Program-made: the position numbers and the translations under genes
In this document: one piece after another, positions 27,577-32,875 of the stretch
Numbering within the stretch: the first letter of the stretch is position 1
Layout of the letters: every line of letters starts with the position of its first letter
Source of the DNA: Desulfuromonadales bacterium
GTDB taxonomy: Bacteria > Desulfobacterota > Desulfuromonadia > Desulfuromonadales > BM103
Length of the DNA: 59,706 nt
Reading direction: 5' to 3'
Assembly: GCA_014860225.1 (NCBI GenBank)
Contig: JACZKE010000037.1
Coordinates: 1-59,706, forward strand
The notes under the pieces: model-generated
Database searches by the model: none
What the model was told of the DNA's origin: nothing
What the model saw: the letters and a program-made list of their open reading frames with translations, nothing else

Positions 27577-29940
27577 CTAGAAACGGTAACCGAAACCAAG
27601 GTAGCCGTAATAAGCGGTACCGTCTTCATCACCATAGACATACATTTCATCGCTGATGAACTTGTCGTAGGTCAGAGATGCGGTTGTATAGCAGCTCGGC
27701 GTGAAGTTGTAAGTGCCGCCGACAGTGACCTGGAATTGCTCGTATGACAGATCCGAGTAGGAGTCGATCAGATTGTTCATCTCCCAGGTATCGTAGTTGA
27801 CAGAAGCATATGCACCCGGGGCCTCGATGCCGGTATCCGCCAACGGAGTTGAGAGATCGTTTTCAGGAAACAGCGACGCCCTTTCGCTGAACTTCCAGTC
27901 CCAGCGATCCTTGGCGTTGTTATAGGTGAAACCTGCGTTCAGCTTCAGTTGTTCGGTGGCCTGGTAATCCATGTTGAGGGCAACGGTGTGGACGTCAGAC
28001 TGGTATTCCGTGGTGTTGCAGATCGAGCCAAACTGGCCCGACGAGACGTCGTTCGCTCAGCCATGGTACCAGCCGACGCACATCTGGTTCTCCGTCTCCT
28101 GCTTGTTGAAGGTATATGCCATGGTCAGGTTCAGCTTGCCGTTTGGTGCGTAGTATAAGGAGACGCCGGGAACATAGGTCTGCTGCTCATAGCTGACGTC
28201 ATCATTCTCCTCGATACGCACCCGGGCGAACAGGGTCGCGGCCATGTTGGTCGACGGTGACCAGGTGGTCGACAGCTTAGCTTCATGGACTTCGTCCGCC
28301 AGGTTGGTCGAGGCCAATTGCCGGTTCGGGTAAACATCGTTCCAGTACCAGACTTTCGGCACATCAGGCGCAGTTGTGAAATCCGAAGTGTTGTAATACC
28401 ACAATCCCGAACCTAGGGGGTCCTGGATAGCCATGGGATCGCCCTGGGCGATGCCGACATGAGCCCCGGCCAGCGGCTCGTCGATGTCCTGGTAAGTGTA
28501 GCTGATATTGCCTGAGAAAGCCCTGTTGATGCGCGATTTGAGCGCCGTCTTCAGAGTGTGGGTCTTGGTTTCTCCCAACTCCTCTTGATCGCGCTCCACT
28601 TCTTCGAATTCGTAGCCCAGGCGCAGAGTCGTTCCTCTTGCCAGACGGTAGACCAGGTCTATAGCAAGTTCCTGGACCTTACGCGCTTCGGCAGAGTGCC
28701 GTTCATCGATGGTGTCAAAGGGCAAGATGTTGCCATTCGGCACCAGCCCGCCGTCGGCGATCCTTTCCCGGCCGGGAAAGTAAATCGAAGTGCTGTCGAC
28801 ATCAATTTCATAGGCATTGGCGCGTAGAGACACGCGCAGGTTGTCAGTCAAACGGGTTGCCAGTTTACCGCCAAACGACTCGTAGTCGCTGCTCAGGGTG
28901 CTGCCTCCCAGCAACTCATATTCAGTCTGAGTTTGCGACTTGGAGCTTTCCACGTCGGATTTGACGTAGCTGGCGATGATGTTGGTGTCCCGGGCCAGGT
29001 CCACCCGCGCCTTCAGTGAGTGGCTGTCTTTCTCGGAGTCTGGTGTGCGAGCAAAGGCATAGTCTCCGGCCTCATAAAGCAGATTGTATGCTGTGGGATT
29101 GCCAGCATCTTCAAAAAAGCGTACAGGCGTTGCACCACCTTCGGAGAACGTCCGGGCCAGATAATCATAGTCAACCGTCACCGGACCGAATTTGCCGGTA
29201 GCGCCGAAGCCGATCTCTTCCGTGCGTTCGTCGATATCTTTGCCGGTTGCAGAGACGTGGCAATTGTCGCACTTGGTGACGCTGATCGCCTGCTCCAGTC
29301 CTTCACGGGTCTCGAGGCGCACCCCGGCATGAAATGTTATGTTCGGCAGAGAAGGCAGGGTTATGTCGGCCTCGCTCTTTAACTCGCGGCGGGTCACGAT
29401 GTAGTCGTTGGCCAGCTCCTGCCTGTAAGCCTCGCCGGCATCGTAATTGAGGGTTCCGCCGCCAACAGCGGTCACCGGGGTCGGCAGGGCCGCGAGATCC
29501 GAAAAGGTCTTGTCCGTAGTCACACTGGGTTGGGAGCCTCCTACGTCATCGCGGGCGGTCGCGCCCATCTGGTCGAGAGTCTCGTGATCCTTCCAGTGCT
29601 CCATCACCTGATAATCGATGCCGAGACGGAAAATGCGGTTAGCATCCACATCCAGGCTGTGTCTCTGGTCACGGGGACCCATTACGTCGATTTCCAGAGC
29701 AAACGCTGAGTTGCCTTCCTGCGATTCGAGGAACAGCTTCGGCGCGAAGCTGAAGCTTTCTTCGGAACGGGTGTTCACATATTCGTTGACGCGAGCAGGG
29801 TTGTCATTGGTATCCATACCTGAAACGCCGATCTCCACATGACCGCTGACTGATTTTTCTTCAGCGACAGCTGCGGTTGCGATCGTCATTAAGGTCAGGA
29901 CAGACAACACTGCAAGCAGCCAGTAATGGCACTTCTTCAT
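27577..29940 (-). CDS. MtrB/PioB-like outer-membrane beta-barrel with one in-frame TGA
   Basis: 787 codons in a single frame, interrupted only by TGA at 28057-28059. A signal peptide (MKKCHYWLLAVLSV... to AAVA, cleavage near 26) leads into a long beta-rich barrel ending in the outer-membrane signature GFGYRF. MtrB/PioB proteins form the porin sheath around a periplasmic decaheme cytochrome; the next gene upstream is exactly that. A CDNCH heme-type motif lies at residues 224-228. The TGA falls in ...CVGWYHG-[TGA]-ANDVSSGQFG..., with cysteines before and after. Selenocysteine, nonsense mutation (TGG to TGA) or base error are all possible; see findings. AGGAGGATAAAC precedes the ATG. Confidence 0.82.
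28022..28059 (-). promoter_or_regulatory. in-frame TGA with SECIS-like hairpin
   Basis: On the minus strand TGA (28059-28057) is followed after 23 nt by a GUU loop (28033-28031) closed by a 9-bp stem: GUCGGGCCA (28042-28034) with UGGCUCGAU (28030-28022), including two G-U pairs. Distance, loop size and the G at the start of the loop fit published criteria for bacterial selenocysteine insertion elements. Confidence 0.4.
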
Positions 29941-29956
29941 GTTTATCCTCCTAATG

Positions 29957-30946
29957 TTAACGGGTCAGACCGCGACCACTGAGCGGTTGCGATGGGTAAT
30001 CGCTGCCATGGACAACCTTATGGCAAGTTGTGCACTTGGTGCCGAAAGAGGTCTGGAATCCTTCATTGCCGTGGACGTTGACAACATCTGCAACCGCTTG
30101 CTGGGCTGGAGTTGTTGCTGTTTGTCCGGCGGCAGGGGTCGGCACGGTATAATTTGACTCTCGCAGAATATGGAAGTGTCCCTCATGACATTGCAGGCAA
30201 AGGAACGGCTCGTTCTGCACCAGCAAGTTGTTGGCCACCGAACCGTGTGGATCGTGGCAGATGGTACAGTCGTCCTCAACCGGCGCGTGACCGAACACGA
30301 ACGGACCCTGATAACGGCTGTGGCAGTTGAGGCAGAGATCGTTGGTGCGCTCGTTGGTGTTCAGTTCCCCGTGCGGATTGTGGCAGTCCGAGCAGGACAT
30401 CTTGCCTTCATTGATCGGGTGATGTGAGGGGAAGCTGGCCTTGGCCATCTGTTCCTGGTGGCAGGAGTAGCAGAGGCCCGGGTCCGACTGCTTGAGGGCC
30501 GTCTTGCCACCGGCGTGGATCGTGTGGCAGTCGCTGCAGGCGACATCGCTCAGCGCATGCAGGCTGTGCGTCCAGTCCATCAATTTGCCATCACTGTGGC
30601 ACTTGGCGCAGACCGCCGCCGATTCTTCCGGCAGAAGATCGCCGAATTTGAGAATCTGGTCGTTGTTGTCTGAATCGATATGCAGGCTGCCGCCGCCATG
30701 GCAGGTTTCGCACCCCTCGGTGCCGCCCATATATTCGAATCCGGCCAGGCGCGAATGAACCCCTGCGCTCATGCCTTCGTGACACTCCAGACAGGCCTCC
30801 TGGCCAATTGAAGTCGCGCCGTCAATGACTGGTAGTGTTAACTGCTTCTCCCTGATTGCTCCGGTGGCACATGCCCCCAGAAACAGTAACAGGGGGAGGA
30901 GTTTGACCAGCCAGGACGACCTGGATAGTGATCCCTTCCTGTACAT
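29957..30946 (-). CDS. decaheme c-type cytochrome lipoprotein (DmsE/MtrA-like)
   Basis: 329 residues. The signal sequence ends in the lipobox LGAC, so it is a lipoprotein; MtrA of Shewanella is a soluble periplasmic protein. Ten CxxCH motifs are visible: CLECH, CETCH, CAKCH, CSDCH, CYSCH, CSDCH, CLNCH, CTICH, CLQCH and CTTCH. MtrA/DmsE-type cytochromes carry electrons through an outer-membrane porin of the MtrB type, encoded directly downstream (16 bases). No surface MtrC-like cytochrome is in the window. ATG at 30946 with AAGGAG is preferred over an upstream in-frame ATG that lacks a signal context. Confidence 0.95.
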   Translation of the reverse strand: MYRKGSLSRSSWLVKLLPLLLFLGACATGAIREKQLTLPVIDGATSIGQEACLECHEGMSAGVHSRLAGFEYMGGTEGCETCHGGGSLHIDSDNNDQILKFGDLLPEESAAVCAKCHSDGKLMDWTHSLHALSDVACSDCHTIHAGGKTALKQSDPGLCYSCHQEQMAKASFPSHHPINEGKMSCSDCHNPHGELNTNERTNDLCLNCHSRYQGPFVFGHAPVEDDCTICHDPHGSVANNLLVQNEPFLCLQCHEGHFHILRESNYTVPTPAAGQTATTPAQQAVADVVNVHGNEGFQTSFGTKCTTCHKVVHGSDYPSQPLSGRGLTR

Positions 30947-31066
30947 AAGTTCTCCTTTTCTTGCTAATTGCCCCAAAAGTATTGAAATGAACGATTTCCG
31001 GCGGGTAGTATTGCGCTGACCTCCTTTCTTTGCATGCTGGCCGGACAGTCTGTGAATTGGCTCATT

Positions 31067-31181: not shown

Positions 31182-32126
31182 ATGGAAACACGTTATCTCA
31201 ACACCCTCATTACTTCTGTCGATGCGGGAACTTTTTCCAAGGCTGCAGAATTACTGCATATTACCCAGTCAGCCGTATCGCAGAGAATCAAGTTCCTGGA
31301 AGAGTATTTCGGCCAGCAGTTGCTTGACCGCAGTGGTCAGAGGCTTGTCCTGACATCCGCCGGCAAAATGGTTTTTGCCAAGGCCAAAGAAATCCTCGAA
31401 AAAGAGAAAGAAATGCTGGCTTGCCTGCAGGCCTCTGCTGTGCAAAAACGTCTTTCTCTCTGCTGTACACCAACCTTCGGTATGGCCTATCTGCCCCTTG
31501 TCCTCAGCAGCTTCCTTCGAGTTCACTCAGACATAAGTGATTTCAAGTTCATCTTTTTGCAGCCATCGGAAGCATTGCAAGGTCTGCGCAACGAAGATTT
31601 CGATCTGGCAGTCATTGAGCATCGCCTGGATCTGGATTTTGCCGGTTTCAACCGCTTTTTTATGCCGGATGACGAAATGCTGGTCGTTGCTTCCGCAACA
31701 CTGTTGATCCCGAATGTCGATGGTGTCGTCCAGCTTTCCGATCTGAAAAACATCAGGCTGTTCGCGCGTCGGGATGGCTGCAGTTCCAAGGAGCTGATGC
31801 GCAAAAATCTCGAAACGCATGGCTTTGATTTTAATGGTTTTGAGAGCGTTGTTGTCTCCGACGATTTGCATTTTACGATTCAGTCGGTTCTGCAAGGTGA
31901 CGGGATTGCCTATCTTTCGCAGGCGTTGGTCAGTAATTATCTGTTTTCCGGGGAGCTTGTCGGCTTGCGTGTCGAAGGTTTTCAGCATCGTCGTGGGCGC
32001 AGCGTGGTAATGCTTCCACAGAGAAGTGAGGATGTTTTGTTGATGGAGCTTCTCGAAAGTATTTTTACAGTGGTTTCGCCCTTATGGCGACCCCGGATGG
32101 TGAATGATGCTGTTTGCGACGGGTGA
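31182..32126 (+). CDS. LysR-family transcriptional regulator
   Basis: 314 residues. N-terminal winged helix-turn-helix (1-60): LNTLITSVDAGTFSKAAELL, HITQSAVSQRIKFLEE, LLDRSGQRLVLTSAG. The effector-binding domain (about 90-300) has the two-lobed LysR pattern (for example DFDLAVIEH, LFARRDGC, GDGIAYLSQALV). The effector is unknown. It is transcribed away from the decaheme cytochrome gene with about 235 bases between, so it probably controls the electron-transfer operon (inference). No strong ribosome site precedes the ATG. Confidence 0.92.
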   Translation: METRYLNTLITSVDAGTFSKAAELLHITQSAVSQRIKFLEEYFGQQLLDRSGQRLVLTSAGKMVFAKAKEILEKEKEMLACLQASAVQKRLSLCCTPTFGMAYLPLVLSSFLRVHSDISDFKFIFLQPSEALQGLRNEDFDLAVIEHRLDLDFAGFNRFFMPDDEMLVVASATLLIPNVDGVVQLSDLKNIRLFARRDGCSSKELMRKNLETHGFDFNGFESVVVSDDLHFTIQSVLQGDGIAYLSQALVSNYLFSGELVGLRVEGFQHRRGRSVVMLPQRSEDVLLMELLESIFTVVSPLWRPRMVNDAVCDG

Positions 32127-32245: not shown

Positions 32246-32875
32246 ATGGAGAAATTGTTTAAAGGCGTCGCCAGGTTCCGTGAGGATGATTTCGAGGCGC
32301 ACAAGGAACTTTTCCAATCTTTGGGCCGAACCCAGAAACCGCATACGCTGTTTATCGGTTGCGCGGATTCGCGGGTGGTACCGGACCTAATTACCCGCAC
32401 CATGCCCGGAGAGCTTTTTACCGTCCGCAATATCGCCAATATCGTACCGCCCTATCGTGAAACGCAAGAATATGCAGGGACGACATCGTCTATTGAGTAC
32501 GCTGTACTGTCGCTGGGAGTGGAAAATATTGTCGTCTGCGGGCATTCCAATTGTGGTGGATGCGCGGCCATGAATCAGTCGCCCGAAGACTTGGCTCATC
32601 TGCCGAATGTGCGGCGTTGGCTGGAGATCTCCAGCGAAGTGCGGAAAAGGGTCGATCGACAGATGGATGTCGAGTGCCCGGAGAAACGTGAATGGCTGAC
32701 TGAGCAGATCAATATCCTTGTACAGATGCGCAACCTGCTTACTTACCCATACGTTCGGGAGCGTTATCAGCAAGGATTTTTGAATATCTATGGCTGGTAT
32801 TACATTATTGAGACGGGTGAAATCTTTAACTTCAATGATCAGAACGAAACCTTCGAGCTGGTGAATGGCCTCTGA
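32246..32875 (+). CDS. beta-class carbonic anhydrase
   Basis: 209 residues. Reversibly hydrates CO2 using a zinc ion. Ligands seen: Cys39 and Asp41-Arg43 in IGCADSRVVPD, His100 and Cys103 in VCGHSNCGGC. The overall pattern fits the clade A/B enzymes (FTVRNIANIVPPY, SSIEYAVLSLGVENIVVCGH). Likely cytoplasmic; no signal peptide. GAGG precedes the ATG. The 3' end nearly touches the convergent J-domain gene (2 bases). Confidence 0.96.
   Translation: MEKLFKGVARFREDDFEAHKELFQSLGRTQKPHTLFIGCADSRVVPDLITRTMPGELFTVRNIANIVPPYRETQEYAGTTSSIEYAVLSLGVENIVVCGHSNCGGCAAMNQSPEDLAHLPNVRRWLEISSEVRKRVDRQMDVECPEKREWLTEQINILVQMRNLLTYPYVRERYQQGFLNIYGWYYIIETGEIFNFNDQNETFELVNGL

Follow-up and report, generated by a model that had tools for sequence, protein, structure and literature searches.

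A porin gene interrupted by a single TGA

We analyzed a stretch of 59,706 nucleotides (the window) from a Desulfuromonadales bacterium (GenBank assembly GCA_014860225.1, contig JACZKE010000037.1, positions 1 to 59,706 of the forward strand), which carries on its minus strand the gene for an MtrB-type outer-membrane porin with one in-frame TGA, very probably read as selenocysteine (Sec), next to the gene for an MtrA-like decaheme cytochrome. The elements of the porin gene are the following:

27577..29940, minus strand: MtrB-type porin (GSU2204/OmcL-like), 787 residues, very probably with Sec at 628 (translation with TGA as U, NF041027, PF11854, MtrB fold)
29863..29940, minus strand: probable signal peptide, residues 1-26, with AVA at its end (by eye from the translation)
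29257..29271, minus strand: single CXXCH (CDNCH, residues 224-228), which may bind a c-heme and lies on a hairpin tip predicted to face outside
28078..28080, minus strand: Cys621, seven residues before Sec
28057..28059, minus strand: in-frame TGA, Sec628 (sequence and comparison of loci)
28022..28042, minus strand: hairpin resembling a selenocysteine insertion sequence (SECIS), with a 9-bp stem and a GUU loop (sequence, covariation, relatives)
28018..28020, minus strand: Cys641

As the initial annotation had described, the frame is open on both sides of the TGA: between the ATG at 29940 and the TAG at 27579-27577, the TGA at 28059-28057 is its single interruption, and a listing of open reading frames under the standard bacterial code splits the porin into pieces of 627 and 131 residues. 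The protein scores 639.2 bits against NCBIfam NF041027 (GSU2204 family (seleno)protein, curated cut-off 350) over residues 14-627, which lie before the Sec, and 71.4 bits against Pfam PF11854 (MtrB_PioB, gathering cut-off 23), and it has the MtrB barrel fold. At 33.8 bits it stays below the cut-off of 240.05 for NCBIfam TIGR03509 (MtrB/PioB decaheme-associated porin), and by these profiles it is a distant branch relative to TIGR03509, outside that subfamily. A scan of the contigs of the host genome found a single locus, and a tblastn search of plasmids gave no match.

The window porin belongs to the same family as GSU2204 of Geobacter sulfurreducens, which we take to be OmcL. While the initial annotation knew of no described Sec-containing porin, the family is not new as a selenoprotein, since it is listed in NF041027 and, as an MtrB/PioB-type selenoprotein family, in passages of two reviews (PMC9312934, 2022; PMC13188914, 2026). 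The table rows in these passages give its name, an accession and a "-" in the motif column, and the passages contain no site, SECIS analysis, topology or function for it. The main text of the reviews' source for the family (PMC2398784, 2008) mentions no outer membrane, MtrB, porin or cytochrome, and neither does that of PMC5029168; within the open-licence literature we found no published mechanism for, or experiment on, the porin Sec. Passages of PMC4070692 report that transcripts rise 2.68-fold for GSU2203 and 2.36-fold for GSU2204 in the presence of hematite, and 1.65-fold and 1.53-fold, respectively, in that of magnetite, and a table excerpt from PMC9961858 gives a GSU2204 homolog as outer-membrane, with 1 in the column that we take for heme motifs.

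Conservation of the TGA and cysteine paralogs

Our sample of relatives comprises 118 genomes, including that of the host, 55 of which have porin matches, some of them weak matches to other porins. Among the 31 loci fetched first (counting the window copy) the TGA stands at the same place in 29, and the contigs of the other two end earlier. A sample of the phylum gave matches at E 1e-10 or better in 50 of 395 genomes. By the count in our table, 36 phylum matches cover at least 700 of the 774 profile positions, and all but one (G439) hold one TGA, two of these 35 with a further stop and one (G163:C87) with the TGA elsewhere.

All fetched loci together give 88 distinct porin rows (matches without a given or fetched locus are excluded), of which 74, from across the phylum, have the TGA in the context [YF]xG-U-[AG] and seven, all paralogs, have Cys instead of Sec. 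As in the window protein, this residue lies 19 positions past a Tyr (7/7 paralogs) and 31 positions ahead of YQAT-like residues (6/7). The comparison of homologs that the initial annotation had proposed thus speaks for Sec: relatives have TGA or, at equal spacing, Cys. The remaining seven rows are two cut by contig ends (L029 and L039), a Cys-type row with its TGA elsewhere (L074), one with a further stop (L081) and three in which no such site was found (L102, L110 and L111).

The seven Cys rows form one clade within a quick, midpoint-rooted tree, neighboring a Sec row, and this placement fits a single Sec-to-Cys change. L074, L106 and L081 were left out of the tree, as were rows in which fewer than about 580 residues align. 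The two rows labeled "none" in it, L029 and L039, are truncated by contig ends rather than true losses, and L102, L110 and L111 may be grouped by long branches. Genome G439 holds a Sec porin and a Cys paralog at separate places (L103 and L104), and the two occur together also in G052, G060, G069, G081, G084 and G087.

Downstream of the TGA, mean identity to the window porin is 56.6%, compared to 50.5% upstream (30 rows), so that the protein past the TGA is at least as conserved as the part before it. A useful contrast to the Sec site is offered by L074 (G163:C87:18572-20998, the same place as L106, fetched twice), a Cys-type paralog whose TGA stands, by eye, at an Arg of its relatives and has no matching hairpin, and which is likely a true nonsense change.

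A covarying hairpin downstream of the TGA

Bacterial SECIS elements are recognized by a loop of 3-14 nt with a G among its first two bases and a distance of 16-37 nt between the UGA and the loop. The coordinates of the hairpin initially noted in the window, with its 9-bp stem, GUU loop and spacing of 23 nt from TGA to loop, hold exactly: 28042-28034 pairs with 28030-28022 around the loop GTT at 28033-28031, and a bacterial SECIS-type hairpin with an early-loop G is thus found 3' of the TGA. No Rfam family matched the window at its gathering score. On its own, the window hairpin is only moderately unusual, as stems of equal or greater length with an early-loop G follow 6 of 766 other codon positions of the same gene, and its fold energy is not special, 120 of 766 positions folding at -12.8 kcal/mol or better. 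What sets it above chance is that the TGA is conserved at the same place and that the stem covaries in relatives.

We assessed covariation in the nearer set (29 distinct sequences) by five measures against 500 shuffles; here as in the phylum set, the shuffles ignore the relatedness of the sequences. Three measures were reached by none of the shuffles: 86.5% of cells are paired (77.7% when shuffled), double changes are found in 22 cells (8.3 ± 2.4), and the stem reaches a covariation score of 0.327 (0.128, with slid registers at or below 0.128). The outermost pair of the window stem is unpaired in 20 of 27 rows, and the shared stem is therefore shorter than 9 bp. For the phylum set, identical 15-base stem-loops were collapsed to 32 distinct ones and the register was set by the distance from the TGA, shifted by one base for the PSFG class and by three for two rows. 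Here 91.1% of cells are paired (70.4 ± 2.0% when shuffled) and 33 are doubly changed (9.4 ± 2.1), neither value being reached in 1000 shuffles, and G comes first in every loop. Under a strict rule of contiguous pairing, a stem of at least 6 bp is present in 61 of 71 distinct stretches (L074 and L106 excluded).

Codon use fits selection on the hairpin as RNA. At Phe637 the codon is TTT in 27 of 27 Phe rows, whereas TTC is the most frequent codon in each of the other 7 conserved Phe columns; at Gly638 it is GGG in 58%, and in none of the other 26 conserved Gly columns is GGG the most frequent. The Cys paralogs share no common hairpin at the site, and two of them have a different 6-bp hairpin. 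Judged by these comparisons, the hairpin is under selection as RNA, and a closer look at it, which had been called for at the outset, finds it conserved in relatives with compensatory changes.

Selenocysteine machinery and probable decoding of the TGA

The genes whose presence had been named as a check are all found in the host genome: selA (531.6 bits), selB (394.4 bits) and selD (362.4 bits), consecutive on one contig, and a tRNA-Sec (74.9 bits) with the anticodon TCA (UCA). The selD gene (L060, G000:C41:9180-10103) has one in-frame TGA of its own, for which reason the selenophosphate synthetase of the host is probably itself a selenoprotein. Across the sample, selA is present in 44 of the 45 genomes with a TGA porin (45 counted by hand) and in 60 of the 73 others (Fisher p 0.016), which makes it a weak test in this order; the only TGA-porin genome lacking it is 84% complete and in about 570 contigs.

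In line with this, the TGA is very probably read as selenocysteine, as the initial annotation had offered as one of two alternatives, a reading that relatives with TGA or Cys, the sel genes and the covarying hairpin jointly support by comparison. The other alternative, a recent nonsense change or, likewise, a sequencing error that truncates the porin behind a chance hairpin, could appeal to the 6 of 766 positions with comparable stems and to the probable nonsense change at L074/L106, but is contradicted by the TGA at the same place in the 74 rows, by the covarying hairpin, by Cys in seven paralogs and by the conserved downstream sequence, and we regard it as extremely improbable. Decoding of the TGA as Trp by another code was rejected, because the genome has selA, selB, selD and tRNA-Sec and the paralogs have Cys at the corresponding position.

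The partner cytochrome and the gene neighborhood

Two neighboring genes belong to the picture:

29957..30946, minus strand: OmcK-like decaheme cytochrome c (GSU2203 family), MtrA homolog, probable lipoprotein (LGAC)
31182..32126, plus strand: divergent LysR regulator of the multiheme-cytochrome-associated type (NF041036, 373.1 bits)

The OmcK-like gene lies directly upstream of the porin; its start was taken as the ATG at 30946, the mechanical start of the open reading frame being the TTG at 30976. Its product has ten CXXCH motifs and scores 442.8 bits against NF041028 and 215.3 bits against TIGR03508 (DmsE family), above the cut-off. Its residues 57-332 align with MtrA (6r2q_A), the best match in the Protein Data Bank (PDB; E 2.5e-42), and the other matches up to E 0.01 are NrfB (1.2e-11) and a chain that seems unrelated and matches weakly (0.0085), with no MtrC chain among them. 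Kinship with MtrA, as that of the porin with MtrB, is thus well founded on comparison, and so is the pairing of the two genes: all 88 distinct porin rows have a decaheme-type gene upstream, 86 of these genes have ten CXXCH, and the gap between the genes is 15 to 80 bases in 84 of the 88, the others measuring -4, 117, 258 and 1481. Two genes are truncated where the DNA ends.

The LysR regulator probably controls the porin-cytochrome pair, and a LysR-like gene lies within the fetched DNA at 29 of 49 loci. It also matches a selenium-metabolism-associated LysR family weakly, at 122 bits, below the cut-off. A carbonic anhydrase gene follows it in the window (32246-32875), and homologs near the pair in L063, L068, L069 and L071 point to a conserved neighborhood. 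Among the 15 window open reading frames examined (21355-43710) there is no gene for an MtrC-like surface multiheme protein, and among 49 loci, most with flanks of about 1.5 kb, only L026 has a further gene with at least three CXXCH.

Predicted placement of the selenocysteine and the CXXCH motif

The porin has its own CXXCH, whose columns C224, C227 and H228 are invariant in alignment A1, and one CXXCH is found in 73 of the 74 Sec rows, the exception, L066, being a partial frame. The cysteines around the Sec, to which the initial annotation had drawn attention, bear out that emphasis only in part. A Cys at the place of Cys621 is common (64/74 Sec rows), while a Cys there together with one near position 641 is found in only 39 of the 74, although in 28 of the 29 nearer Sec loci, and 10 of the 74 (e.g., L075 and L079) have neither. 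By these counts, what stays constant across the Sec rows is the Sec and the CXXCH, not the flanking cysteines.

The structure model alternates between short turns and longer loops, its final strand reaches the C-terminus, and the TGA precedes the last five predicted strands. Outer-membrane barrels usually end on the inside. The tight turns of MtrB are on the periplasmic side, as described in passages of PMC7198977. Counting strands on these grounds, the loop with the Sec (626-635) and the tip of the CXXCH hairpin (222-228) are both predicted to face outside. In MtrB of Shewanella baltica (PDB 6r2q chain B, from the MtrCAB complex), a weak alignment places a Tyr at the Sec column of the profile.

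Discussion

We consider it likely that the TGA is decoded as Sec in the porin of a two-gene outer-membrane electron conduit of the OmcK-OmcL type, where the Sec, probably together with a c-heme bound at the porin's CXXCH, would form a redox or ligand site at the cell surface for the exit of electrons. In this mechanism the MtrA-like decaheme lipoprotein would thread the MtrB-like barrel, the Sec would sit on the cell-surface side at the tip of a long hairpin, and a second hairpin facing the surface would hold the porin's only CXXCH at its tip. Electrons would leave the decaheme at the Sec site for an acceptor or a partner, and the porin's own surface site would stand where MtrCAB uses MtrC. 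That OmcK threads the barrel, that the CXXCH binds heme and that the site serves the exit of electrons is our inference. Set against MtrCAB, the window system differs in the hairpin-tip CXXCH of its porin and in that we found no gene resembling MtrC next to the pair.

Two further systems are among the closest known. Passages of PMC10553843 describe an OmcKL conduit of porin and cytochrome in HotSeep-1 and Seep-SRB2, bacterial partners of methane-oxidizing archaea, name its parts as homologs of OmcK and OmcL of G. sulfurreducens, the naming on which we draw for GSU2204 as OmcL, and remark on a missing periplasmic cytochrome; the word selenocysteine is absent from the main text. OmcK is called extracellular there, whereas the sequence of the window OmcK is MtrA-like, a kinship which suggests, contrary to that view, that OmcK is the through-membrane part and that the missing part is the surface cytochrome. 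The ExtKL/ExtI cluster of G. sulfurreducens, in passages of PMC5877670, likewise has a porin and, in the same group of cytochrome genes, a predicted selenoprotein; there, however, the cytochrome-like ExtKL is the selenoprotein, while in the window the porin itself bears the Sec. We asked whether ExtI could be the same porin and decided against it, as one Cys and no Sec is reported for it in these passages.

Several observations weigh against the conduit with a surface Sec site. OmcK is a probable lipoprotein by its lipobox pattern, and PMC10553843, in the passages cited, places it outside the cell. The Sec loop (626-635) is modeled at a pLDDT (predicted local distance difference test) below 50, and in the order of strands the Sec hairpin is distant from the CXXCH hairpin. 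Of the five covariation measures in the nearer set, two do not clearly exceed the shuffles: pairs with changes on both sides and further pair types were reached by 121 and 151 of 500. The distant rows L102, L110 and L111 retain the CXXCH and the upstream decaheme with no Sec site seen, and the Sec is thus not essential to the conduit; L110 and L111 are also short, at about 600 to 670 residues. Finally, as most flanks span about 1.5 kb, a surface cytochrome gene may lie elsewhere, and in L026 (1-1158) a seven-CXXCH gene does lie beside the pair.

A stronger form of the proposal, in which the porin is itself a redox protein whose surface-loop c-heme and Sec together are the electron exit that replaces the surface cytochrome of MtrCAB, is possible but doubtful; at its boldest it would make the selenolate an axial ligand of the CXXCH heme, a ligation not known to occur in nature. 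Another function for the same residue is conceivable, as Sec enzymes commonly pair Sec with Cys: a selenenylsulfide pair of Sec with Cys621, Cys641 or both would make the porin a surface thiol or metalloid reductase (e.g., of selenite or metal ions) rather than a heme-linked exit. The frequency of a Cys seven residues before the Sec, and of cysteines on both sides in the nearer loci, would suit such a pair, but the Sec rows with neither Cys, and a CXXCH that stays constant while the flanking cysteines vary, make it unlikely in our judgment. The place of OmcK bears on a further alternative, in which OmcK is a surface cytochrome that the porin anchors, or beside which it passes something else, and the Sec loop docks it. 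The extracellular placement in PMC10553843 agrees with this, as does the probable lipobox that a simple pattern detects in 67 of the 84 distinct OmcK N-termini that are not truncated, but the protein aligns with MtrA, which is the decaheme that the barrel of the solved complex encloses, scores above the TIGR03508 cut-off and finds no MtrC chain among its PDB matches, so that we think it quite unlikely. Lastly, the UGA might act mainly as a selenium-dependent switch, low selenium yielding a 627-residue fragment unable to close the barrel, so that the conduit would be assembled only with selenium available, and with Sec chemistry secondary. Such a switch could apply to any UGA-Sec gene, and as the TGA lies ahead of the last five predicted strands, termination should mean total loss of the porin; the Cys paralogs, however, hold a chalcogen residue at the same place without one, which leaves this reading with little probability.

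To the listed selenoprotein family we add the Sec site, the RNA evidence, the Cys paralogs, the topology and the pairing with an MtrA-like gene. Gene calling by the standard code stops the porin at the TGA and would lose its last five predicted strands. The Sec site offers a direct, single-residue test of function in the conduit, and if the proposed mechanism is true, Sec in the conduit barrel would tie the supply of selenium to extracellular electron transfer across numerous lineages within a single phylum, a link that would perhaps extend to the bacterial partners of methane-oxidizing archaea.
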